Source: Odontesthes bonariensis (Eukaryota > Chordata > Actinopteri > Atheriniformes > Atherinopsidae). From it: a DNA stretch of 64,000 nucleotides. Each line of letters begins with the position of its first letter. The stretch's first letter is position 1. Shown one piece after another: positions 20,214 through 47,094 of the stretch. Below the pieces are notes generated by a model. It was not told the origin of the DNA. It made no database searches and saw only the letters and a list, made by a program, of their open reading frames with translations. The DNA lies in NCBI RefSeq assembly GCF_027942865.1, contig NC_134520.1, positions 3,718,501 to 3,782,500 of the forward strand. Reading direction: 5' to 3'. The position numbers and the translations under genes were made by a program.

Positions 20214-20217
20214 TTAA

Positions 20218-20334
20218 GCCTGGTTTATAGTCGGTAACGCAAGACGCAACGCAAGACGCAAGACGCAACGCAAGACGCAAGCCGCAACGCAAGCCCTTGC
20301 GCGGTTGCAAGCCCCCCCTTGCGTGCTTGCGTGT
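20218..20334 (-). repeat. Left terminal inverted repeat with GCAAGACGCAAC-type units
   Basis: This 117-bp end is packed with short GCAAGACGCAAC/GCAAGACGCAAG units on the plus strand. It is the reverse complement of 46993-47090 plus small length differences. The same sequence forms the 3' end of the 0.6-kb MITE at 27563-28185. It stops abruptly at 20335, where the arm-specific sequence ACTGCGGTCAAG begins. The repeated units could be transposase-binding sites, which is inference. Confidence 0.7.
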
Positions 20335-20615
20335 ACTGCGGTCAAGTGAGCCGCCACTCGTTCATCCGCCGTTAAGGCAGCCGCCACTTAACTTTCACAT
20401 GCGCTCATATTCTCTACTACTACGGTTTTAAACGGCGCGACACAACGTTATTAGTTCTAACCTAAACGACGTGTGAAAGAGTGGCGGCTAGCTTGACCAT
20501 CGTAAATGCACTGCCAGATGAGCGAGTTACAGCACCGTAAATAAACCACTCCCACACTCGAAAATGCGTCCCCAAATATGCTTGCTATATAATAATAGGC
20601 CTATGTGAATAGATG

Positions 20616-20620
<5 letters not shown>

Positions 20621-20670
<50 letters not shown>
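20621..20670. repeat. (CT)25 microsatellite in the left arm
   Basis: A pure CT dinucleotide run followed by a short TA run. The mirrored position in the right arm (45591-45648) carries AG repeats interrupted by a CA stretch. This shows the tract was part of the ancestral arm and has since diverged. Confidence 0.9.
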
Positions 20671-20674
<4 letters not shown>

Positions 20675-20694
20675 ATATATATAGGCTATATATA

Positions 20695-22095
20695 GCAAAT
20701 AATAATTAACGTTTGGATCAGAATTTCACTTCAAACATCTTGCATAATAAGTTTTGTCAAACATCTTGCATATTCAAGTTTTTGTCGTTTAGAAATCATG
20801 ATATGTAAGGTTTTTTAAGGACCTTAGCTCCAAAATTGTACAGTAAAATCTATTGGTTCTTTGTTCAGGCATGACTCAGTGGCACCAAATATATGTCCAT
20901 GTAATCCATTGCCAAGAATAATTCACATTTGGATCTGAATTTCACTTCAAACATCTTGCATATTCAAGTTTTTTCGATGAGAAATCGTGATATGTGAGGT
21001 TTTTGAAGGACCTTAGCTCCAAAATTGTACAGTAAAATCTATTGGTTCTTTGTTCAGGCATGACTCAGTGGTACCAAATATATGTCCATGTACTCTATTA
21101 CTAAGAATAATTGACATTTGGGTCAACATTTCACTTCAAAGTGCTTACATATGCAAGTTTTGCCCATCATAACATATGAGGTATTAGGACAATTACTCCA
21201 AATTTTTACAGTAAAATCTAATAAGTCCTCTTCCAGGCATAACTCAGTGGAGCTGTCAGTATGTCCATGTGATTCATTGTTAATAATAATGAACATCTGG
21301 ATAAGCACTGTACTTCCAAATACTTGCATATGATTTTTGTCTGCTAAAATGCAATGTTGTGTTTTTGAAGGACCCTAGCTCCAAAATTGTACAGTAAAAT
21401 CTATTGGTTCTTTGTTCAGGCATGACTCAGTGGCACCAAATATATGTCCATGTAATCCATTGCCAAGAATAATTCACATTTGGATCTGAATTTCACTTCA
21501 AACATCTTGCATATTCAAGTTTTTTCGATGAGAAATCGTGATATGTGAGGTTTTTGAAGGACCTTAGCTCCAAAATTGTACAGTAAAATCTATTGGTTCC
21601 TTTTTCAGGAAGGACTCAGTGGTACCAAATATATGTCCATGTAATCCATTGCCAAGAATAATTGACATTTGGGTCAACATTTCACTTCAAAGTGCTTACA
21701 TATGCAAGTTTTGCCCATCATAACGTGAGGTATTAGGACAATTACTCCACATTTTTACAGTAAAATCTACTAAGTCCTCTTCCAGGCACAACTCAGTGGA
21801 GCTGTCAGTATGTCCAAGTGATTCATTGTTAACAATAATGAACATCTGGATAAGCACTGTACTGCAAAATACTTGCATATGATTTTTGTGTCTGCTAAAA
21901 TGCAATGTTGTGTTTTTGAAGGACCCTAGCTCCAAAATTGTACAGTAAAATCTATTGGTTCTTTGTTCAGGCATGACTCAGTGGCACCAAATATATGTCC
22001 ATGTAATCCATTGCCAAGAATAATGGACATTTGGGTCAACACTTCACTTCAAACTGCTTGCATGCTTTTATTTGGCTAAAATACAATGTTATGTT
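20695..22095. repeat. About 185-bp satellite-like monomers, left arm (about 8 copies)
   Basis: Degenerate monomers repeat with a period of about 180-190 bp. Each contains a GTACAGTAAAATCTATTGG or TTTTTACAGTAAAATCTA core followed by GACTCAGTGG and TATGTCCATGT. Two subtypes alternate: one with TCCAAAATTGTACAG (cores near 20832, 21022, 21380, 21570, 21936) and one with TTTTTACAGTAAAATCTA (near 21200 and 21750). The right arm carries the inverted counterpart with about two fewer monomers once its LINE insertion is removed. Confidence 0.8.
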
Positions 22096-22098
22096 TCT

Positions 22099-25000
22099 AC
22101 ATGTCCCCAGCTACCTCTGTGGTGATTTTCAAGTTGTTTCACTGCATCATTGTTTAATAATCTGATGCTGAAATCTTGCCCAATGCATGATGTATATGGC
22201 CATATTAAAATATTCATAAAAAATTAAAAAAAAGGATTGTTTTCTGCAAACACCACCAGATTCTTGTTCTACATGTCCCCAGCTACCTCTGTGGGGATTT
22301 TCAAGTTATTTCACTGCATCATTGTTTAATAATCTGATGCTGAAATCATACCCAATGCATGATGTATATGGCCATATTAAAATATTCATAAAAAATTAAA
22401 AAAGGATTGTTTTCTGCAAACTCCACCAGATTCTTGTTCGACATGTCCCCAGATACCTCTGTGGTGATTTTCAAGTTGTTTCACTGCATCATCTTTTAAT
22501 AATCTGATGTTGAAATCTTGCCCAATGCATGATGTATATGGCCATATTAAAATATTCATAAAAAATTTAAAAAGGATTGTTTTCTGCAAACTCCACCAGA
22601 TTCCTGTTCTATATGTCCCCAGCTACCTCTGTGGTGATTTTCAAGTCATTTCACTGCATCATCTTTTAATAATCTGATGTTGAAATCTCACCCAATGCAT
22701 GATGTATATGGCCATATTAAAATATTCATAAAAAATACAAAAACCAATTGTTTTCTGCAAACTCCACCAGATTCTTTTTCGACATGTCCCCAGCTACCTC
22801 TGTGGTGATTTTCAAGTTGTTTCACTGCATCATTGTTTAATAATCTGATGTTGAAATCTTACCCAATGCATGATGTATATGGCCATATTAAAATATTCAT
22901 AAAAAATAAAAAAAAAGATTGTTTTCTGCAAACTCCACCAGATTCCTGTTCTATATGTCCCCAGCTACCTCTGTGGTGATTTTCAAGTCATTTAACTGCA
23001 TCATTGTTTAATAATCTGATGTTGAAATCTTGCCCAATGCATGATGTATATGGCCATATTAAAATATTCATAAAAAATTAAAAAAGGATTGTTTTCTGCA
23101 AACTCCACCAGATTCTTGTTCGACATGTCCCCAGATACCTCTGTGGTGATTTTCAAGTTATTTTACTGCATCATCTTTTAATAATCTGATGTTGAAATCT
23201 TGCCCAATGCATGATGTATATGGCCATATTAAAATATTCATAAAAAATTTAAAAAGGATTGTTTTCTGCAAACTCTACCAGATTCCTGTTCTATATGTCC
23301 CCAGTTACCTCTGTGGGGATTTTCAAGTCATTTCACTGCATCATTGTTTAATAATCTGATGCTGAAATCTTGCCCAATGCATGATGTATATGGCCATATT
23401 AAAATATTCATAAAAAATTAAAAAAAGGATTGTTTTCTGCAAACTCCACCAGATTCCTGTTCTACATGTCCCCAGCTACCTCTGTGGTGATTTTCAAGTC
23501 ATTTAACTGCATCATTGTTTAATAATATGATGCTGAAATCTTGCCCAATGCATGATGTATATGGCCATATTAAAATATTCATAAAAAATAAAAAAAAGGA
23601 TTGTTTTCTGCAAACTCCACCAGATTCTTGTTCTACATGTCCCCAGCTACCTCTGTGGGGATTTTCAAGTTATTTCACTGCATCATTGTTTAATAATCTG
23701 ATGCTGAAATCATACCCAATGCATGATGTATATGGCCATATTAAAATATTAATAAAAAATTTAAAAAAGGATTGTTTTCTGCAAACTCCACCAGATTCTT
23801 GTTCGACATGTCCCCAGCTACCTCTGTGGTGATTTTCAAGTTGTTTCACTGCATCATTGTTTAATAATCTGATGTTGAAATCTTGCCCAATGCATGATGT
23901 ATATGGCCATATTAAAATATTCATAAAAAATTAAAAAAGGATTGTTTTCTGCAAACTCCACCAGATTCTTGTTCGACATGTCCCCAGCTACCTCTGTGGT
24001 GATTTTCAAGTTGTTTCACTGCATCATCTTTTAATAATCTGATGTTGAAATCTTGCCCAATGCATGATGTATATGGCCATATTAAAATATTCATAAAAAA
24101 TTAAAAAAGGATTGTTTTCTGCAAACTCCACCAGATTCTTGTTCTACATGTCCCCAGTTACCTCTGTGGTGATTTTCAAGTCATTTCACTGCATCATTGT
24201 TTAATAATCTGATGTTGAAATCTTACCCAATGCATGATGTATATGGCCATATTAAAATATTCATAAAAAATACAAAAACCAATTGTTTTCTGCAAACTCC
24301 ACCAGATTCTTTTTCGACATGTCCCCTCTGTGGTGATTTTCAAGTTGTTTCACTGCATCATCTTTTAATAATCTGATGTTGAAATCTTGCCCAATGCATG
24401 ATGTATATGGCCATATTAAAATATTCATAAAAAAATAAAAAAGGATTGTTTTCTGCAAACTCCACCAGATTCCTGTTCTATATGTCCCCAGCTACCTCTG
24501 TGGTGATTTTCAAGTTGTTTCACTGCATCATTGTTTAATAATCTGATGCTGAAATCTTGCCCAATGCATGATGTATATGGCCATATTAAAATATTCATAA
24601 AAAATAAAAAAAAGGATTGTTTTCTGCAAACTCCACCAGATTCTTGTTCTACATGTCCCCAGCTACCTCTGTGGGGATTTTCAAGTTATTTCACTGCATC
24701 ATTGTTTAATAATCTGATGCTGAAATCATACCCAATGCATGATGTATATGGCCATATTAAAATATTCATAAAAAATTAAAAAAGGATTGTTTTCTGCAAA
24801 CTCCACCAGATTCTTGTTCGACATGTCCCCAGCTACCTCTGTGGTGATTTTCAAGTTGTTTCACTGCATCATTGTTTAATAATCTGATGTTGAAATCTTG
24901 CCCAATGCATGATGTATATGGCCATATTAAAATATTCATAAAAAATTAAAAAAGGATTGTTTTCTGCAAACTCCACCAGATTCTTGTTCGACATGTCCCC

Positions 25001-25205
25001 AGCTACCTCTGTGGTGATTTTCAAGTTGTTTCACTGCATCATCTTTTAATAATCTGATGTTGAAATCTTGCCCAATGCATGATGTATATGGCCATATTAA
25101 AATATTCATAAAAAAATAAAAAAGGATTGTTTTCTGCAAACTCCACCAGATTCCTGTTCTATATGTCCCCAGCTACCTCTGTGGTGATTTTCAAGTTATT
25201 TCACT
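22099..25205. repeat. Tandem array of about 170-bp units, 19 copies (left arm)
   Basis: The unit begins ACATGTCCCCAGCTACCTCT and continues through TTTAATAATCTGATG, CCAATGCATGATGTATATGG and CCATATTAAAATATTCATAA to an A-rich stretch and CTCCACCAGATTC. Unit starts occur near 22099, 22268, 22443, 22612, 22782, 22955, 23125, 23295, 23467, 23636, 23807, 23977, 24148, 24318, 24483, 24654, 24823, 24993 and 25162. Units differ by a few substitutions and A-run lengths. The copy near 24318 lacks AGCTAC. No stable reading frame is conserved. Confidence 0.95.
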
Positions 25206-25209
25206 GCTT

Positions 25210-25431
25210 CATTTTGTGATTATTTGATGCTGAATTCATCGGTGACATCCCCCCATCTCTTTATATCACTCTTCTTCTTTCCTTTTTCATAATGTTATTT
25301 CATTTCACCATTTTTGCCTTTTACTTGCTTGATGTCCTTGTATGTGTGTGTGTGACCATATTCCTTATTGGACATCCAGCCCTACCTGCACCAGCCCAAA
25401 TCAACTGGTCATCTCTACCTTGTCTGCACCT
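25210..25431. other. Central unique DNA of the outer foldback, left part
   Basis: This stretch lies between the 170-bp array and the inserted 740-bp foldback. It has a TG microsatellite near 25340-25355 and no coding potential. It continues after the foldback at 26188 and, after the KDZ element, at 42295. Confidence 0.5.
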
Positions 25432-25439
25432 CTCATCAG

Positions 25440-26179
25440 GGATACAGGTCGTTTAGGCCACAGTCGTTTAGGCCCCCCTGCAGTCGTTTAGGCCAACAGA
25501 GGAGTCGTTTAGGCCACAGGGAGCAGTCGTTTAGGCCCCCCTGCAGTCATTTAGGCCAGGCTACCTGAGCAGCTGAAATCTTTATTATTGTACATTCGTT
25601 ATTATAAGATATAAGTCAGCTCTACTGGTCTGTCTGGGTAGCCTACATATCTATGGTAAATTATTTAATAACCAACTTTAGTGTGGAAACGTTTTTTTTT
25701 TATTTAATAAATGGTGATTTATAAATTCATAAAATTGTGGAAATAATCATCCGCATTGCCACATTCATTGGACAATAATGCTGTAATTATTTAGAAGCCC
25801 GTTAGATTCGCGCGGTTTGTGAGAATTAAAATAGTGATTTATAAGATAAGCATGCATTGTCATCGAGCTACCTGAGCAGCTGAAATCTTTATTACATCAC
25901 TTTATAAATCACCATTTATTAAATAAAAAAAACGTTTCCACACTAAAGTTGGTTATTAAATAATTTACCATAGATATGTAGGCTACCCAAACAGACCAGT
26001 AGAGCTGACTTATATCTTATAATAACAAATGTACAATAATAAAGATTTCAGCTGCTCAGGTAGCCTGGCCTAAACGACTGCTCCCTGTGGCCTAAACGAC
26101 TGCAGGGGGGCCTAAACGACTCCTCTGTTGGCCTAAACGACTGCGGCCTAAACGCCAATGGCCTAAACGACCTGCTCCC
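25440..26179. mobile_element. 740-bp foldback element of GTCGTTTAGGCC units with 8-bp target duplication
   Basis: The element is almost entirely palindromic about a centre near 25800. Its outer arms hold about six GTCGTTTAGGCC units on the left (25446-25560) and the inverted GGCCTAAACGAC units on the right (26065-26172). These are separated by spacers such as CCCCCTGCA and ACAGAGGA. The inner arms mirror each other from GGCTACCTGAGCAGCTGAAA inward. CTCATCAG stands immediately outside both ends (25432-25439 and 26180-26187), an 8-bp duplication as produced by hAT-type transposases. The terminal 20 bp match in inverted orientation with a few mismatches. No coding sequence is present, so it is non-autonomous. 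Confidence 0.8.
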
Positions 26180-26187
26180 CTCATCAG

Positions 26188-26701
26188 TGCACTACAGCCA
26201 AACAGGGAAGAGACAGAACCAAACTTAAATTATCAACACAACACCTCACAGTGAGCAGTTTAAAAAATAAGCAAGCTAACTCAAAACTGTGTATCAAGGA
26301 GGCCCAGGCATGACCTGATTCTTGACTTGAAATGATGTGACGTTGTGGAGCTTTAGCACCATGGACTGGCAATTCCAGAGCTCAGAGCAACAGTGGATGT
26401 GACAAATATATATGCAGCATGTAATCTACAACACATCTCCAGATACTCCTATCCTGGCTTTCATGTTGCTTTACTGCTGCATATTCCTAAATATTGAGAT
26501 TTCAAACACAAGGTTCACGGCTACTTCTGACATAGCTTTTAATTTTGCTTTACTGCAGGAATTTCCTATAAAGACATTTTGGAATTAAAAAATACACTGT
26601 TAAATAAACAAAACAAACAATTTGTCCTTTCTTTTCAGCTGTTGCCCATATATTCCTATGTAATACCATGTATTTTATCGAGATGTGGTTTTATGGGGTT
26701 A
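26188..26701. other. Central unique DNA of the outer foldback, middle part
   Basis: AT-rich DNA without recognisable coding content, ending at the target site of the KDZ element. The junction sequence GTTAAATATACC here continues as ATATCTCTCC at 42295, which reconstructs the pre-insertion site. Confidence 0.5.
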
Positions 26702-26709
26702 AATATACC
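26702..26709. repeat. Left target-site duplication AATATACC of the KDZ element
   Basis: AATATACC directly precedes the left end AACCCAGTCTCACAGC. The same octamer follows the right end CTGGGTTG at 42287-42294. Because flank and element share an A, the duplication could be read as 7 to 9 bp. Eight is the simplest reading. Confidence 0.75.
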
Positions 26710-27342
26710 AACCCAGTCTCACAGCAAAGCGTGTAATACCTACGTTGGTCCACGGGGGAAAACGTGGTATATTCACGATAAAGGCTCTAAAATTGTGACA
26801 TACTTACGTTTAATGTGGCCATTCATTTACATTGGCCTCGGCACTGGTCACGTGACCGTCAAGTTTCCCCCCGGTAAAAACAAAAAGAATGGCGGACACT
26901 CCTTACATTTTCTGTGGAAAATGTAATATTTTGAGCTACCATGCACATTTACATACATTTAGATGACATTTCTGACGAGAAGTTTGCATTATATTTTCAT
27001 AATCTTCTATCAGAGAATGTAGACGACCTTCCTTTTATTAGTTTCTACGAAGATTTTAGCATCTCTTTAGAAAATCGTTGCAATGCAACGATTTGCACCG
27101 TTGTTAAGGTGGTTGCTATGGACGCTGCTATCTCTGCTCGGCCACCTAGTTGCATATTATCTAATGATTTGTATTTGTTAATTATATTATTTGATGTAAA
27201 CGTTTAATGAGGGGTCCCGGATAACAAACGAGAAAAATATTTAAAAAGCATATTAAAATATAGCTACGCCAAATCTGTATGCCGCATGCGCGAGCGGATC
27301 AGGCACAGTACGGCAACTCAACTAGGACAATACATATTAGCT
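26710..27342 (+). repeat. Left terminal inverted repeat of the KDZ element
   Basis: It pairs with 41066-42286 after removal of the MITE at 41582-42181. Correspondence runs from AACCCAGTCTCACAGC to CTAGGACAATACATATTA. It contains a 23-bp near-perfect palindrome, AAATCGTTGCA then TGCAACGATTT around one base (27072-27094), which is conserved in the other end. A small insertion near 27290-27315 distinguishes it from the right end. Confidence 0.8.
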
Positions 27343-27562
27343 GGGGCTCATGGTGGTTGCTATGGACGCTGCTATGGCTGCTAGGCCACCTCGTTGCATA
27401 TTGTCTGATGATTTGTATTTGTTAATGATATTATTTGCTGTAAACCTTTAAAGAGGGGTCGTACATCTAATCCCGGATAACAAACGAGAAATATTTTAAA
27501 AGATCATTAAGAGATAGCTGCACCATATCTGTATAACGCATGCGCAAGCAGGTCAAGTCTAT
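27110..27562. repeat. Direct duplication of about 200 bp at the inner edge of the left KDZ end
   Basis: GGTGGTTGCTATGGACGCTG at about 27110 recurs at about 27351. The following segments (GCCACCT, GTTGCATATT, GTATTTGTTAAT, AGAGGGGTC, CCGGATAACAAACGAGAAA, GCATGCGC) run in the same order in both copies up to about 27310 and 27550. The second copy keeps CGTACATCTAAT, which is also present in the right end and missing from the first copy. This suggests duplication followed by separate decay. Confidence 0.7.
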
Positions 27563-28185
27563 AGGCTGAGTTATACTTCTTTTAACTGCCCTTGCGCTTG
27601 CGTCTTGCGCGTATGTTAATGGCTCGAGACGTTTATACTTCATTTTGCTTTGTCGGCGCTTGCGTGTGCTGCGTGGCGATTCACCGCCAGGACAGTAGGT
27701 GGAGTAGCGGGTTTTTTCAATGACAAGCCTACTATGATGAAAGCAAATTCACCGCCAGGACCTCTTCGAGTGGATTCATGCTTCTTCTTCTTGTAAATAG
27801 CCGGTATTTTGTCAGATTTTCAACACCTTGGGGGTCTAAACGACTACTTTCTCGCCTGAAAATGTTTCAAATGTTGCTATAGTTATATATTTACAGAGTT
27901 TATAGCTTAAGGGAAATCAGCTTTTCAGGCTGGCTGATTTGGGCTCGGACAGGAGTGAAGTGCACTGTGTGTAAACGCTCTGCATACTGTCAGATCGATG
28001 AGTGCCGTTTTCAAGTAGTAGGCGGTTTCGAACACAGCCAGTGGCTTGTGCTTGCGTCTTGCGTAAAGTTTAGAAAATTGAGGTGACACACGCAAGCACG
28101 CAAGGGGGGACTTGCAACCGCGCAAGGGCTTGCGTTGCGTCTTGCGTCTTGCGTTGCGTCTTGCGTTACCGACTATAAACCAGGC
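27563..28185 (+). mobile_element. 0.6-kb MITE (GGCTGAGTTATAC ... CTATAAACCAGGC)
   Basis: The ends are imperfect inverted repeats (GGCTGAGTTATAC against GCCTGGTTTATAG). The interior contains GCTTGCGTC-type repeats near both ends and no credible coding sequence. Two further copies, inverted relative to each other, form the right end of the outer foldback (45946-47090). Its last 100 bp equal the outer element's terminal repeat. No convincing target duplication was seen. It lies about 125 bp upstream of the transposase start codon. Confidence 0.7.
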
Positions 28186-28309
28186 TTATCAGTTTGTCGC
28201 TGTCAATAAAGTTGAAAAAAAAAAAAAGAAAAAAAAAAAGGTTAAAAGGGCCCCGCAGCTGGCTGGCTCACTCTTGTATTTTAAACAGGTAAACACCGTG
28301 TTAGGTACA

Positions 28310-30206
28310 ATGAGTAGGCCAGAGGACGACGATGAGTTATTTCTTGCCGACATGCTTTTGGGAGAATGTGAGGTAAGAAAAATATCTTCTTTGATATGTT
28401 CCTTTCTTAAGAAATGTGGGTGCCGAGTTTTTTTACTGAATTTCTACCTGAGTTTTTGTCATCAATTCGGCAGTCGCCATTTTGGGGGTACTCGGTCAGA
28501 CCGTTCAAAACATTTTGGAGTTTTATAGACTGCCAAAAAATACATTTATCAGAGGAAATGAGGCGTGTGTGGTCAGCGAAGCTAGAAGCCAGGATCGACA
28601 AAGGCAAAACTCTGGACGCCCCTAGGCGTTTGATAATTGCGCATACTCAGTGGAGTTACAGGGCACTGTAAAATTCGGATTAAGGGCTGAATTACAATAA
28701 GAATGAGTTATTAAATGGATGTATACACCTTAATCTGAAGAGAAATTGCGGATATTGTTACTCGTGGTCGGATTAAGACACCGAGATAACTTGGTTTACA
28801 GTCACACTAAACGTGATTTTAGACTAGTGAAGCACGTGGTGAATTGGACATTGCGTTCTGCGCATGCTCGAGATGGTTTTTTTTCTGCTACAACAACGGT
28901 AATACCGGCTGTGTTCGAAACCGCCTACTACTCCTACTAACTTTAACGTTTTTTAAGTTCCCGGATGCATACTAGATTCTCCTAAATGTTGGGTATGCAT
29001 CATGGGATTACTACTCATACTCAAACTACACAGGATGCAACGTAACGTGACGTTGCCGATCGTTATTTCCTGTCAAAACGGCAGTTTCAAGCTAGCTACC
29101 GGCTACCATATCTATGCTAGTTACGAGGGTAGGTTCACTTCCTGTTTCAAAACAAAAGCACCAATTGTATCGTAATGGCTTTCCCTATGATAAAAGGCAA
29201 CGGGTATTTTATTTTGTGAAAATAACCGGAAGTGCGTTACTCGCTGCGGCTAGCTTTAGTAGCACTATACAGCATACTGTCTGATCGAATGAGTATGCCG
29301 TTTGCAAGTATGTAGTAGGCGGTTTCGAACACAGCTACCGTCTCTTTTGACTTCCGGTTTACGGCTCTGTGAAAAAATCTCGATGCACCACACTGAGCTT
29401 ATATCTGATTGGTAAACCGAGGAACCTCTGCCCCGGAAGTATTTTTCTCACTATTTTAAGGATTTCTTTTAATGATATCACAACATTTCTCAACACAAAC
29501 GTGTCAAAGTTTCACTGATAATTCAACAATAAAATAGATTATTGTTGCCCTCAGAATTTTTTATTTTTTCTCCATCGATTCTGATAAATAAAGTTTTATT
29601 CGTATTTTTGGATGGCGGAAAGGCCTACACTACCCATAATCCTTGACCACCAACTATTTGTCAGACAGAGGGTGCAGATCCAATCCGATTGAACGGCACA
29701 TATTTTTCTTTATTTGCTTAAATATTTTGAACATTGATTCAAGTAATGTGGGTTTCAAACTGAACATTTATTTTTACATATATGTAACATTTTTACATAT
29801 ATGTAACATTTGTAAGTTGAATACATAATAAATTCTCACAACCATTATGCTGCTGTGGCCCTCGTTGACAATGAGTTTGACACCCCTGGAGGCAATTTGA
29901 AGTTATTATGTAATATTAAATATGTCTCGCCAGAAATTTGTATGTATGGAACATTTTTTTTTACAGTTGCCTGTTCATACGGATGCTGCTATTGCCTGAT
30001 ATTAAAGTGGTGTGTTTCACGTCAAACAGAGTCAAAGTAAAGAGTCAGCGACAGGGTCTGAAACTCGGACAGAAAAGGTTGTTTGGCTTGAGGAAGACGA
30101 GGACGGCCAACCTCTCCATAAAAGACAGAGGACTGGGGAGAAACGGAAACGGGGACAAGTCACTGGTTGGTGGTCTTCAAGCTAATTGTTATTATATTTT
30201 TTTTTA

Positions 30207-30263
<57 letters not shown>

Positions 30264-34074: not shown

Positions 34075-34215
34075 CGGCCATCTTTGCGCTCTGTTCAAGT
34101 CTGGAAAACACTCTGTACCTGCAGAGCCCACACCAACCTGCTCTCCACTCCAAATGTGTGGATTTGTTATACAGTTTGTGCATACTGTATGATGTTAAAA
34201 GATGTGCATATATAA

Positions 34216-34221
34216 AATAAA
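34216..34221 (+). terminator. Candidate poly(A) signal of the KDZ transposase gene
   Basis: AATAAA lies 142 bp downstream of the transposase stop codon, followed by T-rich sequence. This spacing suits a short 3' UTR. Confidence 0.6.
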
Positions 34222-34519
34222 TTACTTAAATTTGCACTATCGTGACATTTTCTTCCACTATGACATTATATAAATATATATACTGTAAATATGAGATGCA
34301 GATAAACTAATATAAAATACAGTACACAATATACAGTTGCATATGTGGGAATCACACTTCTTAATCTGAGTTATGTGGAATCACAGGAGGCTGTTGCGCC
34401 TCTTTATGACATGTAACAAAAACAAATGGATCAGGTATTCAGTACAGCTTTACTGTCGGTAGGCCTGGTCCCATAACCAGCGTTCTTATACTCACTTTTC
34501 ACTCACTGCCATTCATAAC

Positions 34520-35955: not shown

Positions 35956-36049
35956 TTCCCTATAGTTAGATGTTTACAGAAGGGGCGTTAGTGTAAACAT
36001 ATTTGGATTGTCAGAATATAAAAACGTAGTCCACATAATAGTTTGGGGT

Positions 36050-36240
36050 GGGAAGTCAGCTGATTTACCACGCGCCAGTCTTTGCTTTTGATCGGCTACT
36101 GCCCTGGTTATCTGTGTAGGTGATTGGTTACAGATCACAGTCAGCCAATCAGAGGCCTAATAAGGCGGGTCGTGAACATATTGGCGCTAATTTACGATTG
36201 TACGCGCTCTTCACACGGCAGTATAGCTGAAGCTGGACAG
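36050..36240 (+). promoter_or_regulatory. Putative promoter and non-coding first exon of the second KDZ-element gene
   Basis: A locally GC-richer block contains two inverted CCAAT motifs (GATTGGTTA near 36123 and AGCCAATCAG near 36145) and ends with GCTGGACAG|GTAAGT, a strong splice donor at 36240. A matching acceptor TTCCAG ends at 36746, just before the ATG at 36754. This suggests a 5' UTR exon. Transcription start is inferred, not seen. Confidence 0.45.
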
Positions 36241-36753
36241 GTAAGTTACAGATATTAAATGTAGTGTGAATATATTTTTATTAAATATAATTACAGTGAG
36301 CTAAGAATGTGGCAAAAATGATGTAAATTATTTTTTTTAATTGTTGTCCTAGTACTGTAACAGGAATTGCAATAATAACACAGTGCAACATTACTACTGT
36401 TTTTTCTTCTTAATACTAAGATGTAGTATACATCTTAATTTGTGCAATACTATCACTGTTTTTCTATTTCTTAATTAGTAGTATGCAACATACAACTTTG
36501 GACAGTAATGTGCATTTTTTATCAGCAATGTGCAATTTACACTAATTAACATGCAATATAAACCCTATTGATAACAACTGTCTATCCATCCTACCTCATG
36601 TAAGCAGGCTACTGTTATAGTTGATTTAATATCTATCTAGATATATTGATATAATATTGATATCTTACCTTATCTTAATTACACTGATAAGGCTGCTAAG
36701 AACATGGCTCTGGTTGCTAAAATATAAATATCGCTTCATATTCCAGGTAAAAA

Positions 36754-39700
36754 ATGCCAAGAGGGTCAACCACAACCATCTGCACTAGCTGCAATGCAGT
36801 CATTCCTGTGGCTGCCAAGACATGCAAGTCTTGCCAGGTGGTACAGCCTAAAAGGCAAAGACTTGAAAAAAAATTAAAAATATTTGAGGCAAAAAAAGAG
36901 GACTGGCTTAAAAAACAAAGGAAGAATAGAACCACCTCACATGTCATGGATGAGGCATCCATTTTGGTATGTGTTGCATGTCTCTGTGTTTAATTCATGC
37001 TTGTGATATTTCTGTATGAGATTTTAATTTACTTTTTTGATACCTAGGTTGAAAAGTTACATGCACTGGGGTACAAGGCCATCGTTATGGTCGGCAAACC
37101 AGGCAAAAAGCCTGACACCTGGTTTGCAAATATCCTGCACCCAAAGTGGCAGCTGTCCAACCAGGCTGTGCAGTGCCTAGACAGGACGAAGGCCTTATTT
37201 GAGGTGGTAGTTAAAGGTAAGCACATGAACTGTATCACTGATACCTTTAATTGTCAACATATCAGAGTACTACAAAATCTCATGAATACTTTATGCCTGA
37301 TGATCAGACAGCTATTTTCATTTTCCACACTTATGGATAAAAGACATTTATAATGGAGTCTAGGCTGTTATTTTATTATGTACCTTAATACTTATTTTAA
37401 CATGGTTTTCCAACATAAAAATGGTAATAGCCCACAAGGTACAACATTTACTTTCTCATTGAGAGCTGTGAAATTTCAACACTGCTGCTTCTGATATGTT
37501 GGACAAAAAGCATCATTGTTGAGATTGAGAAGCTGAATTGGGAATGAGGTTGTGTTTTGCATATTTCAGCCTCAGTCACACCTAGACTGAGATGATGAGT
37601 CGGTTGTGTAATAATCTCACATTTTACTTACGTGCAGAAAAATCTCTTCAGGTGGAGGAATATAAAAGTACCTCTTTAGTGACAACCTGTGCTCAGAAGT
37701 ATTGTGGGGCAGATTTTAGGTGATACATATACATTAAAAGTAGAAATTTGAGCAAGGGTCTTTCAAAATATATATATACATACATTATTTGTAACTGCTT
37801 ATGCTTAGTGGATCTCAGGAGTTGCTGGGGCCCATCACAGCTGTCAGTGGAAGAGGACGGGGTACACCTTAGACAAGTTGCTGCTTTATTGGAGGGCTGA
37901 CACATTGAGACAGACAACCATTCTACAGGCAGTTTAGAGTTACCAGTTAGCCTAAGCTGCATGTCTTTGGACTGTGACAGGAAACCAGAGTACCCGGAGA
38001 AAACAGACGCAGACATGGGGAGGACTTTCTAAATATATATTGCAGGCAATATAGGGTCTACTACTATTGAAAAATGAATTAAATTGTGTTTTGGTTTCAT
38101 TGAGGTTGGACTGACCAGCAACCATCCCCCAGCCTCACCACCACCAGCCCCGCCGTCCAGCCATCCACCAGCCTAGCTGTCCAGCCATCCACCAACCCAG
38201 CTGTCCGGCCATCCACCAGCCTAGCTGTCCAGTCATCCACCAGTCCCGCTGTCCAGCCATCCACCAGCCCAGCTGTCCATCCATCCACCAGCCCAGCTGT
38301 CCGGCCATCCACCAGCTTAGCCGTCCATCCATCCACCAGCCCCGCCGTTCAGCCATCCACCAGCCCAGCTGTCCGGCCATCCACCAGCCCCGCCGTCCAT
38401 CCATCCACCAGCCCCGCCGTTCAGCCATCCACCAGCCCCGCCGTTCAGCCATCCACCAGCCTAGCTGTCCAGCCATCCACCAGTCCCGCTGTCCAGCCAT
38501 CCACCAGCCCAGCTGTCCATCCATCCACCAGCCCAGCTGTCCATCCATCCACCAGCCCAGCTGTCCGGCCATCCACCAGCTTAGCCGTCCATCCATCCAC
38601 CAGCCCCGCCGTTCAGCCATCCACCAGCCCCGCTGTCCGGCCATCCACCAGCCCAGCTGTCCGGCCATCCACCAGCCCCGCCGTCCATCCATCCACCAGC
38701 CCCGCCGTTCAGCCATCCACCAGCCTCGCTGTCCAGCAATCCACCAGCCCCGCCATTCAGCCACCCACCAGCTCCGCCATCCGGCCATCCACCAGCACCC
38801 TCAGAGCCAGAGGTAAGCAATTAATATTTATTAATTAGTGGCTTGTTATAAGAATACTTTATAAATCCCACAAGTGGAAATTGCGAAAGTGCTTTTCATT
38901 GGTATAATCTCATACCAAAGTTATGCTGACGATACCCAGCTCCATCTGTCATTCCCACCTGATGACCACACAGTCTCAGCACAAATCTCAGACTGTCTCT
39001 CTGACAAATCAAAATGGATGAAAGCCCATCACCTCCAACTAAACCTCTCTAAAACCGAACTGCTTGTCTCTTCAGCCAAACCAACCATACACCACAGCAT
39101 CTGCATTCAAACTTCCAAACCACCCAGCTGCTGGTGCAGGCCATGGTCATCTCCCACTTTGATTACAGCAATGCTCTCCTAACTGGTCTCCCAGCCTCTG
39201 CTGTGAAACCGCTGCAGATGGTCCAGAACGTGGCAGCGCGTCTGGTCTTCGAACAGCGGAAAAGAGCACACGTCACCCCTCTGTTCATTGAACTCCACTG
39301 GCTACCCTTAGCCGCCCGCATCAAATTCAAGTCACTGATGTTAGCCTACAGACTCCTTAATGGAACGGCTCCCATCTACTTGAATGCTCTTGCAAAGGCT
39401 TATGTCACAACTCGGTCACTCCAGTTGTCACAGGATTGTCGTCTAGCAGCGCCTACACCACGCTTAAGACAATCCAGACTCTTTTCATGTGTCGTTCCAC
39501 GATGGTGGAATGACCTACTGAGCGCTACCAGAACAGGAGCATCCCTGAATATCTTCAAGAAACTCTTGAAGACCCAGCTCTTCAGAGAGCATCTCCTATC
39601 CTAGCACTTACCCTGTACTTCCCTACTCCATCTACTGCACTTTTATCTTTCTGTACTTCCCTCTATACCTGCACTCTATCTCTACACTGTCACCTCTGAC

Positions 39701-40757
39701 AGAATCTGACTTGTGGTTTCCTTCTATGCAGCTTATTGTTAGCTTTGATATTAGTTGTAATGTTATATATCTTTCAATTGAAAGTCGCTTTGGATAAAAG
39801 CGTCTACTAAATGCATAAACATAAACATAAACATAATTATGGCAGTTAATGTTACTTTCTCTGATAATTTTGGTAAGGGAAAACATGTATTAAATGTAGA
39901 AAAGAAGATAACCCAGTAAGAAACCCTGTGGGAACCCATACACAATGTCATGTTAAAGTGAAAAATTACAACCCAGTTTCTTGGCATTTTTAACATTTTA
40001 GGCATTTCATCCACTTTGTCCGACTTTATTTATTTTTGGCAAGAGGGTTAATATTAACATGCAAAACATTGTAACTGTATACTTTATTTTTCTCTTTTAG
40101 AATGCAGCCATAGGATGTCTGGTGGAGAACATTATTATCCTGTCAAGAGGGTCGTAAACCACAAAAGGCTAAAGGTTTGTTTTCTCATAACATGAGGTGA
40201 AATATGTTGAAGGGGACAGATACAGGAAATCTTTCCTGTCACATGCCATCACACTATACAATAAAAACTAAGATCACTGGTCATTACTTCTCTATATGCA
40301 GTTTATAAAAAAAAAAATATATATATATATATAAATTTGTCATCTGAGCACATGTTAACTTTCTAATGGTAGATATGTTTTAATACTTTCTAGGGAAAAC
40401 CAATGGAACTTGTGGAGTGGGAGCCCTGTTCTATGTGGTATGTTGGATGTCTCTTCATTTTATTTTATCATCTCAAATATTACCAAAGAAATAGAACAAT
40501 TATGAGAATAATGATAATGCTAACAGTTGAAGCATCAAAACAGTGTATGTTAACTCCTGAATCAAACTTTCATAATAATGTCAGCTACAGTAATCAGGTT
40601 ACTGAATCCATGTAAAATATTTCACTCAAAAATGTTCTTCTCATTGACATGTTTTGAATTTCATTCAATGCTGATGTAAGAAACAAATCTCCATCTTTCT
40701 CACAGTGGGAAGACCTGGCCCTTCGAGTGGGTAGCCAAGGAACACACAAAACAATAA
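36754..40757 (+). CDS. Unrecognised accessory protein of the KDZ element: zinc ribbon, octapeptide repeats, chromodomain-like end
   Basis: Six coding exons with GT/AG sites and consistent phases: 36754-36966, 37048-37216, 38105-38812, 40101-40174, 40394-40437 and 40706-40757. They give 419 residues and a TAA stop. Exon 1 encodes CTSC at 10-13 and CKSC at 24-27, a small zinc ribbon, followed by a Lys-rich helix. Exon 2 encodes a conserved-looking stretch (GYKAIVMVGKPGKKPDTWF) that I do not recognise. Exon 3 encodes 26 uninterrupted octapeptides of type PSTSPAVQ. The last three exons encode YYPVKRVVNHKRLKGKPMEL followed by VEWEPC and KTWPFEWVAKEH. The order of aromatic and basic residues resembles a chromodomain, with an added CxxC. 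A role in targeting the element to chromatin is inference. The intact frame across six exons suggests selection or recent origin. Confidence 0.7.
37795..38030 (-). mobile_element. Retroposon-tail type repeat in intron 2 of the accessory gene
   Basis: The stretch shows CCCATCACAGCTGTCAGTGG, GGGTACACCTTAGACAAGTT, CATGTCTTTGGACTGTGACA and AGAGTACCCGGAGAAAAC. These are in the order of a very common fish repeat, probably the 3' end of a non-LTR retrotransposon. No coding content. A degenerate relative lies near 61440-61625. Confidence 0.5.
38161..38784 (+). repeat. 26-copy, 24-bp minisatellite coding for octapeptides
   Basis: CCATCCACCAGCCCAGCTGT plus four further bases repeats exactly every 24 bp from 38161 to 38784 with no indel. 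One degenerate unit stands on each side. Variation is mostly at Pro/Leu in position 5 and Gln/His/Arg in position 8. On the plus strand the frame in phase with the neighbouring exons is open throughout. The opposite strand is also open (a Trp/Met/Ala/Gly-rich frame), but only because the unit length is a multiple of three. Confidence 0.9.
38900..39835 (+). mobile_element. 5'-truncated LINE-2-like retrotransposon fragment
   Basis: The translation begins at SYADDTQLHLSFPPDD (the catalytic YADD box) and, after one frame change near 39125, continues as VISHFDYSNALLTGLP, ELHWLPLAARIKFKSL and ending NIFKKLLKTQLFREHLLS at about 39604. The 3' end has the LINE-2-type tail (GTCGCTTTGGATAAAAGCGT) and short ATAAAC repeats. 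It lies in the intron between coding exons 3 and 4 of the accessory gene, so splicing can remove it. It is inactive. Confidence 0.85.
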
Positions 40758-40822
40758 ACATATATATATATCACATAAATGTCTTCATTATGTTATTATG
40801 TCTTATTATGTTCACTGATTGA

Positions 40823-40828
40823 AATAAA
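40823..40828 (+). terminator. Candidate poly(A) signal of the accessory gene
   Basis: AATAAA lies 66 bp after the TAA stop at 40755-40757 and is followed by GT/T-rich sequence. A second AATAAA overlaps the stop codon itself and is less likely to be used. Confidence 0.55.
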
Positions 40829-41065
40829 TGTTCAGTTGCCCCCATGTTGTTATTGTTGTTGTTATTTATGGAAAATGTAGAGACATTTTTATATTAAATA
40901 AGACTTATGTCTTATGTTTTGTAGGCTATGTATGTGAACTGCTAAAACTTATGTTGTTCCCATAAAAACAGTAAAACATGTAAGAATGCATGTTAGAATG
41001 ACACAATAGAAGTCAAGCATAATTACACAGAAAATAATATTCTTGTTCCTTTTCATGAGCCTTTG

Positions 41066-42286
41066 TTAATATGTATTGTCCTAGTTGAGTTGCGCATGCA
41101 GCATTCAGATATGGTGTAGCTATATTTTAATGTGCTTTTTAAATATTTCTCCTTTGTTATCCGGGATTAGATGTACGACCCCTCATTAAACGTTTACAGC
41201 AAATTATATCATTAACAAATAAGACAATTTGCAATGTGCAACGAGGTGGCCTAGCAGCGATAGCAGCGTCCATAGCAACCACCTTAACAACGGTGCAAAT
41301 CGTTGCATTGCAACGATTTTCTAAAGAGATGCTAAAATCTTCGTAGAAACTAACAAAAGGAAGGTCGTCTACATTCTCTGATAGAAGATTATGAAAATAT
41401 AATGCAAACTTCTCGTCAGAAATGTCATCTAAATGTATGTAAATGTGGATGGTAGCTCAAAATATTACATTTTCCACAGAAAATGTAAGGAGTGTCCGCC
41501 ATTCTTTTTGTTTTTACCGGGGGGAAACTTGACGGTCACGTGACCAGTGCCGAGGCCAATGTAAATGAATGGCCACATTAAAGCTGCAGTTCTGCAACTC
41601 TTTTTCAAGCATAATGCCTGGAACTGTCCGGGGATTCTGAAAGTAGTACATTAAATACCCCATTACAAAAAAAAATAGTTCTCTAGGTCCCCTATATGTC
41701 CCGCTAGGTCCCTCCAAAGCCAGCAGGTTTGTTTACAAAATTGCAGACCGGACCGGTAAAAGGTAACCAATCAGGTTACGAGCTGGGCTCTGCTGCCTGT
41801 CAATCACAGATTGTGCACGCGCGATACAAGGTAGGCTCGTCCCCACGCTTATTTATCTGGACTATTGAACTTCATTATGGGCTAGTCTACTTACTGTGTC
41901 TTCCATGATCGCAAATGACAGGTGAGTTGATGAATGAGGAGTCGTGTAGGCACATCTGGCGTGCACGTAAACGTGCACGAGTTCTCATGTGTTTTGATGG
42001 GGCGGGACAGGAAGTTGAATAACTTTTTATTTTTCGGTAAAAAAATAAGCATTTCTTGCATTTTGCGACTACGGAGGTCACCGTTTTCAAATTCAAACGT
42101 TCTGATAGATCATGTAAACTCTTAAAATGCCAAAAATTAGGACTTTACGTATGACAACAACAAATCCTGCAGACTGCAGCTTTAAACGTAAGTATGTCAC
42201 AATTTTAGAGCCTTTATAGTGAATATACCACGTTTTCCCCCGTGGACCAACGTAGGTATTACACGCTTTGCTGTGAGACTGGGTTG
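41066..42286 (-). repeat. Right terminal inverted repeat of the KDZ element, split by a MITE
   Basis: It is the reverse complement of 26710-27342 except for the 600-bp TTAA element at 41582-42181. The 23-bp palindrome AAATCGTTGCA/TGCAACGATTT is kept at 41297-41319. The terminus CTGTGAGACTGGGTTG abuts the target duplication at 42287. Confidence 0.8.
41582..42181. mobile_element. 600-bp TTAA-flanked MITE, copy 1
   Basis: The ends are AGCTGCAGT...CTGCAG and TGCAGACTGCAGCT. TTAA occurs on both sides (41578-41581 and 42182-42185). The corresponding site in the left KDZ end (near 26810, ACTTACGTTTAATGTGGCC) has TTAA once and no insertion, proving the borders. TTAA targets are used by piggyBac and Kolobok transposases. 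A second 600-bp copy, nearly identical by eye, is at 49529-50128. No transposase is encoded. Confidence 0.9.
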
Positions 42287-42294
42287 AATATACC
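42287..42294. repeat. Right target-site duplication AATATACC of the KDZ element
   Basis: It repeats the octamer at 26702-26709 directly outside the right element end. Sequence beyond it (ATATCTCTCC) continues the pre-insertion DNA of the outer foldback. Confidence 0.75.
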
Positions 42295-42680
42295 ATATCT
42301 CTCCATTATTTATCTGCACTCCTTCATTTTTTGACTTATTTCCCTTTTTTAAGTTTTACATCTCCATGTTAAACTTAAATTTCCAGCTTTTTAGAAAAAG
42401 TTTGCATTCATATTACACAGCAAATAAACTATTTCTTGATAACAATTTTATGTTGTACACAGCTAGCTAGATCACCTATACCCTTAAACCTATATCCACA
42501 CTATATCGACAGTTCAGTGTAGGCATTAGGATGGAAAAGAAATTATAGTTTGAGTTGTGAAACTAGTCTTAACTCTAATGTCCTCATTATGTGATCTTCA
42601 CTCATACATAGTTCTGTTAAATAATTTTTAAATATGTTGAGTTTTAAATGTGTTAAATCTGATTGCTACATTAGATTGAT
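42295..42680. other. Central unique DNA of the outer foldback, right part
   Basis: AT-rich DNA without coding potential, leading into the inverted 170-bp array of the right arm. Confidence 0.5.
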
Positions 42681-42689
42681 CAATATTCA

Positions 42690-43337
42690 GTTTTTTTATT
42701 TTTTATGAATATTTTAATATGGCCATATACATCATGCATTGGGTATGATTTCAGCATCAGATTATTAAACAATGATGCAGTGAAACAACTTGAAAATCAC
42801 CACAGAGGTAGCTGGGGACATGTCGAACAAGAATCTGGTGGAGTTTGCAGAAAACAATCCTTTTTTAATTTTTTATGAATATTTTAATATGGCCATATAC
42901 ATCATGCATTGGGTATGATTTCAGCATCAGATTATTAAACAATGATGCAGTGAAATAACTTGAAAATCCCCACAGAGGTAGCTGGGGACATGTCGAACAA
43001 GAATCTGGTGGTGTTTGCAGAAAACAATCCTTTTTTTATTTTTTATGAATATTTTAATATGGCCATATACATCATGCATTGGGCAAGATTTCAGCATCAT
43101 ATTATTAAACAATGATGCAGTTAAATGACTTGAAAATCACCACAGAGGTAGCTGGGGACATGTAGAACAAGAATCTGGTGGAGTTTGCAGAAAACAATCC
43201 TTTTTTTTATTTTTTATGAATATTTTAATATGGCCATATACATCATGCATTGGGCAAGATTTCAGCATCAGATTATTAAACAATGATGCAGTTAAACAAC
43301 TTGAAAATCACCACAGAGGTAGCTGTGGACATGTAGA
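42690..43337. repeat. Inverted 170-bp array, 4 copies (right arm)
   Basis: Reverse complement of the left array units. The AGAGGTAGCTGGGGACATGT borders fall near 42806, 42976, 43146 and 43317. Only four copies are present against 19 in the left arm, so the two arms differ by about 15 units. Confidence 0.95.
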
Positions 43338-45560
43338 AACATAACATTGTATTTTAGCCAAATAAAAGCATGCAAGCAGTTTGAAGTGAAGTGTTGACCC
43401 AAATGTCCATTATTCTTGGCAATGGATTACATGGACATATATTTGGTGCCACTGAGTCATGCCTGAACAAAGAACCAATAGATTTTACTGTACAATTTTG
43501 GAGCTAGGGTCCTTCAAAAACACAACATTGCATTTTAGCAGACACAAAAATCATATGCAAGTATTTTGCAGTACAGTGCTTATCCAGATGTTCATTATTG
43601 TTAACAATGAATCACTTGGACATACTGACAGCTCCACTGAGTTGTGCCTGGAAGAGGACTTAGTAGATTTTACTGTAAAAATGTGGAGTAATTGTCCCAA
43701 TACCTCACGTTATGATGGGCAAAACTTGCATATCAAATCAAATCAAATCAAATCAAATTTATTTGTATAGCACATTTCATGTACAAACAGTTCAAAGTGC
43801 TTTACATAAAATAAAAGCATTGCAGCAGGGAGTGCAAGAAGCATTAAAAATACATAAAATAATATAAAGAGAAACAAATAAAATCATTTAAATGAATTTA
43901 AAATCAGGCAACAGTCTAGATAAGTTAAAAGATATTTCATGCATAGACACATGAGAAAAGAAATGTTTTTAACCTGGATTTAAAAATGTCTACATTTGGT
44001 GAAAGTTTAATCTCCACTGGCAGTTTGTTCCACTTATTTGCAGCATAACAGCTAAATGCTGCTTCTCCATGTTTAGTCTGGACTCTGGACTGGACCAGCT
44101 GACCTGAGTCCTTGGATCTAAGAGCTCTGCTGGGTTTATATTCTCTGAACATATCACAGATGTATTTTGGGCCTAAACCATTCTGGGATTTGTAAACCAT
44201 CAGCAGGCTTTTAAAATCTATTCTATGACTGACTGGAAGCCAGTGTAAAGATTTTAAAACTGGTGTGATGTGTTCAGATCTCTTAGTCCGGGTTAAAACT
44301 CTAGCAGCAGCGTTCTGGATGAGCTGCAGATGTTTAATGCTCTTTTTGGGAAGTCCAGTTAAAAGAGCATTACAGTAATCGAGTCTACTGGAGATGAATG
44401 CATGGATGAGTTTCTCCTGGTCTTTTTGGGAGAGGAAACCTTTAATTCTGTTGATATTTCTGAGGTGGTAAAAAGCTGCCTTGGTGACAGCTTTGATGTG
44501 GCTGCTGAAAGTCAGATCTGAGTCTATCAACACTCCGAGGTTACGAACTTGGTCAGTGATTATAAGGTCCCGAGTCTCAAGATATGTACCAACGCTGACC
44601 CTCTTCTCTTTGCTGCCAAACAGAATGATCTCAGTTTTGTCTTCATTTAATTGTAGAAAATTCTCTCTCATCCAGGTGTTTACTTCCTCCAGACACTGAC
44701 ACAGAACGTCAGCTGGGCTGCAGTCGTCCGGTGACAGAGACACATGAAGTTGTGTATCGTCTGCATAACTGTGATAATTGATGTTAAAATTCTGTAATAT
44801 CTGACCCAAAGGGAGCATATACAAGTTAAACAGAAGAGGTCCAAGAATTGACCCCTGGGGGACTCCACAAGTCATGGCCACTCGCTCAGATTCATAGCTG
44901 CCAATAGTAACAAAATAACTCCGGCCTTCTAAGTAGGACCTGTAAGCACTTTGAAGTGAAATGTTGACCCAAATGTCAATTATTCTTGGCAATGGATTAC
45001 ATGGACATATATTTGGTGCCACTGAGTCATGCCTGAACAAAGAACCAATAGATTTTACTGTACAATTTTGGAGCTAGGGTCCTTCAAAAACACAACATTG
45101 CATTTTAGCAGACACAAAAATCATATGCAAGTATTTGGAAGTACAGTGCTTATCCAGATGTTCATTATTATTAACAATGAATCACATGGACATACTGACA
45201 GCTCCACTGAGTTATGCCTGGAAGAGGACTTATTAGATTTTACTGTAAAAATTTGGAGTAATTGTCCTAATACCTCATATGTTATGATGGGCAAAACTTG
45301 CATATGTAAGCACTTTGAAGTGAAATGTTGACCCAAATGTCAATTATTCTTAGTAATAGAGTACATGGACATATATTTGGTACCACTGAGTCATGCCTGA
45401 ACAAAGAACCAATAGATTTTACTGTACAATTTTGGAGCTAAGGTCCTTCAAAAACCTTACATATCATGATTTCTAAACGACAAAAACTTGAATATGCAAG
45501 ATGTTTGACAAAACTTATTATGCACGAAGTTTGAAGTGAAATTCTGATCCAAACGTTAAT
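43338..45560. repeat. About 185-bp satellite-like monomers, right arm, split by a LINE-2
   Basis: Inverted counterpart of 20695-22095. CCAATAGATTTTACTGTACA cores occur near 43476, 45046 and 45411. AGTAGATTTTACTGTAAAAA-type cores occur near 43661 and 45230. A LINE-2 copy occupies 43734-44941. Without it the block is about 1.0 kb, some 0.4 kb shorter than the left arm. Confidence 0.8.
43734..44941 (-). mobile_element. 5'-truncated LINE-2-like retrotransposon with intact RT C-terminal frame
   Basis: On the minus strand an uninterrupted frame from about 44940 to 43937 encodes the RT palm motif CGVPQGSILGPLLFNLYMLP, the catalytic SYADDTQLH, ISSRLDYCNALLTGLP and ITPVLKSLHWLPVSHRIDF, ending in TFLFSCVYA. 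The 3' end is the LINE-2-type (TTTGA)n tail, seen here as CAAATCAAATC repeats at 43734-43759. The 5' end is cut inside the RT domain. It interrupts GCATAT|GTAAGCACTTTGAAG, whose uninterrupted form is at 45301-45320. The extended ORF start beyond 44941 reads flanking monomer DNA and is not part of the LINE. Confidence 0.92.
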
Positions 45561-45586
45561 TATTATTTGCTATAGCCTATATATAT

Positions 45587-45590
<4 letters not shown>

Positions 45591-45643
<53 letters not shown>

Positions 45644-45648
45644 GAGAA
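45591..45648. repeat. (AG)n microsatellite in the right arm
   Basis: AG repeats with an internal ACACACAC stretch, the mirror of the CT tract at 20621-20670. Confidence 0.9.
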
Positions 45649-45945
45649 CTCCATCTATTCACATAGGCCTATTATTATATAGCAAGCATATTTGGGGACG
45701 CATTTTCGAGTGTGGGAGTGGTTTATTTACTTTGCTGTAACTCGCTCATCTGGCAGTGCATTTACGATGGTCAAGCTAGCCGCCATTCCCAGCCGCCACT
45801 CTTTCACACGTCGTTTAGGTTAGAACTAATAACGTTGTGTCGCGCCGTTTAAAACCGTAGTAGTAGAGAATATGAGCGCATGTGAAAGTTAAGTGGCGGC
45901 TGCCTTAACGGCGGATGAACGAGTGGCGGCTGACTTGACCGCAGT

Positions 45946-47090
45946 CTTGCGTGTGTCACCTCAATTTTCTAAACTTCACGCAAGACGCAAGCGCAAGCCA
46001 CTGGCTGTGGTCGAAACCGCCTACTACTTGATCGATCTGACAGTATGCAGAGCGTTTAACACAGTGCACTTCTCTCCTGCCCGAGCCGAAATCAGCCGGC
46101 CTGAAAAGCTGACTTCCCTTAAGCTATAGGCTAAACTCTGTAAATATATAACTTTAGCAACATTTGAAACATTTTCAGGCGAGAAAGTAGTCGTTTAGAC
46201 CCCCAAGGTGTTGAAAATCTGTCAAAATACCGGCTATTTACAAGAAGAAGAAGAAGCATGAATCTATGGAAGAGAGACTTGCCAAAGAGCTCCTGGCGGT
46301 GAATTTCCTTTCATCGTAGTAGGCTTGTCATTGAAAAAACCCGCTACTCCACCTACTGTCCTGGCGGTGAATCGCCATGCAGCACACGCAAGCGCCGACA
46401 AAGCAAAATGAAGTATAAACGTCTCGAGCCATTAACATACGCGCAAGACGCAAGCGCAAGGGCAGTTAAAAGAAGTATAACTCAGCCTTAAGGCTGAGTT
46501 ATATGGCTAAGTTATATGGTTAAATGGCTCGAGACGTTTATACTTCATTTTGCTTTGTCGGCGCTTGCGTGTGCTGCGTGGCGATTCACCGCCAGGACAG
46601 TAGGTGGAGTAGCGGGTTTTTTCAATGACAAGCCTACTATGATGAAAGCAAATTCACCGCCAGGACCTCTTCGAGTGGATTCATGCTTCTTCTTCTTGTA
46701 AATAGCCGGTATTTTGTCAGATTTTCAACACCTTGGGGGTCTAAACGACTACTTTCTCGCCTGAAAATGTTTCAAATGTTGCTAAAGTTATATATTTACA
46801 GAGTTTATAGCTTAAGGGAAATCAGCTTTTCAGGCTGGCTGATTTGGGCTCGGACAGGAGTGAAGTGCACTGTGTGTAAACGCTCTGCATACTGTCAGAT
46901 CGATGAGTGCCGTTTTCAAGTAGTAGGCGGTTTCGACCACAGCCAGTGGCTTGTGCTTGCGTCTTGCGTAAAGTTTAGAAAATTGAGGTGACACACGCAA
47001 GCACGCAAGGGGGGGCTTGCAACCGCGCAAGGGCTTGCGTTGCGTCTTGCGTCTTGCGTTGCGTCTTGCGTTACCGACTATAAACCAGGC
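45946..47090. repeat. Head-to-head pair of 0.6-kb MITEs forming the right end of the outer element
   Basis: 45946-46487 is an inverted copy of the MITE seen at 27563-28185, missing its last 100 bp or so. 46492-47090 is a direct copy with an altered start (GGCTGAGTTATATGGCTAAG) and an intact 3' end. They meet at the perfect palindrome ACTCAGCCTTAAGGCTGAGT (46480-46499). Compared with the left arm, the extra DNA is 45946-46992. Both arms share the border TTGACCGCAGT. Confidence 0.75.
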
Positions 47091-47094
47091 TTAA

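Follow-up and report, generated by a model that had tools for sequence, protein, structure and literature searches.

Nested transposons in Odontesthes bonariensis: a KDZ element inside a foldback element with tandem-repeat arms, inside a palindromic element

We analysed a 64,000-nucleotide stretch of the Odontesthes bonariensis genome (C20:3718501-3782500 in an assembly of 945 Mb and 187 contigs; hereafter the window), which carries a block of nested repeats. The preliminary description of this DNA had proposed that large inverted arms enclose the block, and self-alignment bears this out: 21700-22744 pairs with 42690-43733 at 96.8% identity over 1045 bp, and 20335-21328 pairs with 44941-45945 at 83% over 1021 aligned columns, against a total of 3 inverted matches at E<=1e-3 in 20 mononucleotide shuffles of 20001-47500. 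The enclosing element, which we call FB, spans 20335..45945 and measures 25.6 kb including its insertions. Both of its ends start with the tip ACTGCGGTCAAGT, and an exact 9-bp target duplication, CTTGCGTGT, flanks it on the left (20326..20334) and on the right (45946..45954). The duplication, together with the tip seen in other copies, places the borders at 20335 and 45945, some way inside the 20218 and 47090 first assigned to them.

The sequence beyond these borders belongs to a separate palindromic element, X. Positions 20214-20334 and 45946-47094 are the two halves of X, split by FB. The left piece (20214..20334, + strand) matches 46993-47094 in inverted orientation at 84%, and the palindromic remainder lies at 45955..47094. 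An FB-empty version of the target is present in the other arm of X (46785-47071) and in an X-type copy within the KDZ element (27881-28166), at 90-91% identity. The FB borders and the 9-bp duplication rule out that X belongs to the outer foldback; the outermost sequence is an additional layer and not foldback arm.

Three modules build the FB arms: A, a degenerate repeat of ~189 bp; T, a repeat of 170 bp; and a further module that we call B. In the left arm, A occupies 20757..22063 (+, TRF) and is followed by ~18 copies of T at 22095..25239 (+, from self-alignment and TRF, which reports 18.3 copies at 22095-25213). Module B lies on either side of the KDZ element, at 26172..26708 and 42294..42697 (both +). 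The right arm holds 3.8 inverted units of T (42690..43338, -) and, further out, module A with the tip (44941..45945, -). Inverted arms of great length that contain tandem repeats characterise foldback elements, and FB has them. Near-identical tandem-repeat arms of such length also assemble poorly, and a misassembly or a local inverted duplication could have made them with no outer element present. We regard this as very improbable: the FB-empty site is observed, an exact 9-bp duplication borders 5 of 14 loci, and the preliminary description, which had named a lack of other genomic copies with the same outer borders as the sign of such an artefact, is answered by FB tips at both ends of further loci in the same genome.

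These dispersed loci carry target duplications. Where both ends were checked, 8 of 14 loci are flanked by duplications of 8-9 bp (exact 9 bp at five, 9 bp with one mismatch at two, exact 8 bp at one), compared with 0 of 182 mispaired control ends; the count includes the window and leaves out a locus on C161, which has the same flanks as one on C19. The duplication is absent at the other 6 of the 14. At C27 a second tip lies within the left flank itself.

Within FB lies an element of 15,578 bp (26709..42286, +) with CAACCC...GGGTTG ends and relatives elsewhere in the genome. Its inverted ends (26709-26813 and 42182-42286) agree at 99.0% of 105 bp, in keeping with the earlier account of a ~15.6-kb KDZ element with inverted ends of its own. 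The KDZ identity also stands, with PF18758 and PF18804 both above their curated Pfam cut-offs. An open frame with the CxC3 domain (PF18804, E 1.9e-8) is located at 31166..31759 (+), and the KDZ transposase domain (PF18758, 29.2 bits vs a cut-off of 26.6) at 32038..32410 (+). The latter is split over two frames in the window copy, and is in one frame in relatives, so that the window copy probably cannot move itself. Ten genome places match PF18758, nine without an internal stop and one with a stop; the window is absent from these ten.

The target duplication of the KDZ element is AATATAC, 7 bp, at 26702..26708 on the left and 42287..42293 on the right. A flanking repeat of 8 bp had been reported; the ends of two other copies dismiss it, showing that the eighth base is the first C of the element. 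These two copies, on C15 and C7, have CAACCC..GGGTTG ends and 7-bp duplications, and they are two of the three other copies with both ends read; the third, on C26, shows no duplication. On C23 a single end of the copy was read, and no end lay within the bases read on C1.

The transposase domain places the element in the KDZ superfamily. Two fungal Kyakuja families are described, in the part of the account that we cite, as lacking inverted ends, with termini of the form CA..TG and target duplications of 7 bp (PMC12730594). The element shares with them the superfamily, the CA..TG ends and the 7-bp duplication. It differs from those two families, as that part of the account presents them, in having inverted ends, and relatives in the genome match the first 853 bases of the element at both ends. 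The same excerpted source gives 8-bp duplications for Zisupton (PMC12730594), with which the element shares the superfamily and from which its 7-bp duplication sets it apart. We class it as KDZ only, because its inverted ends break the Kyakuja description.

The KDZ element was thought to sit in a unique centre of the foldback. It does not, because it interrupts arm module B, which seven long FB relatives carry in each of their arms. All 15 alignments obtained, 14 of them to full arms and one to a fragment, show the KDZ-empty site; they come from 7 of the 11 other FB loci, and the remaining 4 yielded no alignment. This uninterrupted site in FB relatives agrees with the order foldback then KDZ that had been read from the layout, and with the empty sites for both the FB and the KDZ insertions the full order becomes X, then FB, then KDZ. 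The material compared in this search for empty sites was paralogous copies of the same genome. The stretch offered as the left pre-insertion site (25210-26709) is not itself intact: it contains a ~730-bp insertion with long inverted ends (25440..26171) that is missing from all seven long relatives. At the junction there is an overlap of ~15 bp.

Since the KDZ element lies wholly within FB, a transposase acting on FB might move the two together, as one composite giant element. The genome gives this little room, and we consider it highly unlikely: seven long FB copies are without KDZ, two KDZ copies at other loci possess ends and 7-bp duplications of their own, and among the matches listed there is no second copy of the FB and KDZ combination. 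Independent transposons, with FB in X and KDZ in FB, account for the block far better.

The seven long FB relatives are 7.5-19.1 kb in length, and each arm carries all three modules, around a centre of 693-751 bp (five measured). Aligned FB arms reach 5.7 kb, and one T array runs to 59 units (C24, TRF). The window copy has a single B module and is therefore a rearranged form or a member of another subfamily. Among the seven, module A is 98.6-100% identical, module B 99.1-100% and the tip 97.6-100%. Set against the seven, the window copy reaches 93.3-94.3% in A and 99.1-100% in the tip. The FB family is apparently young and recently active.

The longest stop-free frame in six of the seven long copies is 141-170 aa. 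In the remaining copy, C24b, it extends to 710 aa and matches RVT_1 (Pfam, E 4.5e-36); the 160-aa frame of the C25 copy matches ALKBH8_N (E 3.8e-13), with a weak RVT_1 match below cut-off. No transposase match was found by Pfam in the unspliced frames of C24b and C25, the two of the seven copies scanned, and in this sample the middle part is free of recognised transposase, as in other foldback elements. A separate 18-kb locus (C24:32867257-32885207) has short FB arms and an exact 9-bp duplication, tctggggcc, around ~15 kb of other DNA. As a candidate coding, autonomous FB it was rejected: of six frames, chosen from those of at least 90 aa, five were without any match and the sixth matched ALKBH8_N and, weakly, RVT_1, so that none of the six is a transposase by Pfam.

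Drosophila FB/NOF elements have a foldback shape and repeats in their arms. FB resembles them in both respects, and resembles Galileo likewise, as far as the excerpts on that element go; no NOF-like or P-type protein was demonstrated for FB. A closer parallel comes from Drosophila virilis, whose foldback transposon Tetris carries tandem repeats in its arms and makes duplications of 8-10 bp; its authors, in the sections we draw on, found neither an autonomous copy nor the mobilising enzyme (PMC4079207). By those sections, Tetris and FB have in common inverted arms with tandem repeats (TIR-220 in Tetris, 170 bp in FB), 8-10-bp duplications, a transposase-free middle and a variable repeat number. 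FB departs from Tetris, as there described, in its aligned arms of up to 5.7 kb and its array of 59 units, and in having, in the same genome, a candidate parent whose frame is intact, where the Tetris authors found no autonomous copy. Published abstracts link foldback elements with chromosome inversions and satellite DNA. The titles and abstract openings of the open-licence literature searched name no fish or vertebrate foldback family.

Among described kinds, FB stands nearest to foldback transposons of the Tetris sort, and the inner element to KDZ transposons whose ends resemble those of Kyakuja. The layout had been called unusual and without known description. For this very locus we too found no description; foldbacks that have tandem repeats in the arms and make duplications of 8-10 bp have been described, at least in the part of the Tetris report cited above, and the nesting is ordinary and of known kinds.

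The candidate parent is a family of elements of 11-17 kb with tips ACTGCGGTCACGCC, the 170-bp arm repeat of FB and a frame of 406 aa. In one copy (C6:11324910-11336660) the tips read ACTGC[A/G]GTCACGCC, T repeats lie ~100 bp inside the tips in inverted orientation, and the end of the 406-aa frame adjoins a GTAAGT donor-like site. Across the genome the tip pattern occurs 267 times, and the reversed control 0 times. Seven full-length copies of the frame are uninterrupted and 100% alike (rounded), out of 49 matches in total that include more distant relatives; relatives of the 406-aa protein range from 24% to 54%. Among the tip matches listed, two tips accompany four of these seven frames and a single tip accompanies the other three. 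Both ends were read in four copies: a clean 8-bp duplication flanks one of them, and the other three are without. In the C17 copy the expected right tip was not found within the 250 bases read there. On C1, inverted FB-type arms stand ~133 kb apart (C1:93245-226215) and enclose a relative, 49% identical, of the 406-aa frame (C1:145180). The idea of a 133-kb giant element bounded by C1:93245 and C1:226215 was set aside, the expected right tip not being within the 161 bases read.

The 406-aa frame has no family match in Pfam, whether searched whole or in pieces, and its 14 matches to solved structures are weak and all to stathmin-4 (best E 0.08). It contains the motifs LDATGS at position 268, ICDGSM at 343 and RCLSHIMKN at 390, a D..D..CxxH arrangement that may be Mutator-like. 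Mutator-like elements have target duplications of 8-10 bp, and those of FB, at 8-9 bp, fall in this range, as does the 8-bp duplication of one in four candidate-parent copies.

The candidate parent family is the probable source of transposase for FB. Because the tips of the two families share only their first 10 bases and diverge beyond, mobilisation in trans is something that we infer. It is possible, if rather unlikely, that FB is moved by another transposase, of P/Galileo type or a canonical MULE, and that the two families have the 170-bp repeat in common simply as satellite DNA. The unbroken agreement of the tips over 10 bp only speaks for this, as do the eight genome places with the MULE domain PF10551, none of which is at the 406-aa frame, and the example of Galileo, which by the excerpts available combines foldback-like arms with a P-type transposase (PMC3573991, PMC3688188). 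Against it, the candidate parent has the 170-bp repeat ~100 bp inside both tips and in inverted orientation, and the duplication, where present, is 8-9 bp in both families. A bolder proposal, which we put forward tentatively and hold to be doubtful, is that the 406-aa frame represents a transposase lineage outside Pfam, associated with satellite-like repeats near the tips, that drives active long foldbacks in a vertebrate.

Taken as a whole, the block is with high confidence best explained by independent transposons, FB in X and KDZ in FB, with FB probably mobilised in trans. The palindromic X was split by FB, which is without recognised transposase and left the 9-bp target duplication; the KDZ element then inserted into arm module B and made the 7-bp duplication. 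FB would move by cut-and-paste, with transposase supplied in trans by the related family, and its tandem repeats may let the arms grow and shrink. The value of the system is that a foldback family, apparently young, shares one genome with its candidate parent, and the nesting supplies clean empty sites for the FB and KDZ insertions. Because seven copies at least 98.6% alike share a genome with a candidate parent that has an intact frame, the question of what mobilises FB is directly testable.

Further insertions are present in both FB and the KDZ element, as had been claimed. Several KDZ relatives lack, at the corresponding position, the X-type copy found within the KDZ element (27563..28186): the match of other KDZ copies breaks off at query 853 and restarts at 1478, with a single weak match inside the gap (C7, 76%, query 1082-1329). 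The KDZ element also holds a reverse-transcriptase fragment (RVT_1, 38865..39182, +, E 6.8e-4, below the Pfam cut-off) and a GC-rich tandem repeat at 38104-38838 that is open in several frames. Element Y, ~600 bp long by self-alignment (41583..42181), lies in the right inverted end; a second copy lies outside the nest at 49525-50133, and it is 97% identical to 41578-42186. The right FB arm contains a retroelement fragment (43734..44940, -, bounds by self-alignment) with an RVT_1 frame at 43940-45040 (E 8e-18), and this sequence recurs at a different position in the C1 copy. Beside the nest, a Ras-family match (4785-5333, -) and a UCH ubiquitin-hydrolase match (51981-52397, +) are probably host gene exons, and an Exo_endo_phos endonuclease domain at 63108-63704 (+) is probably part of a retroelement.
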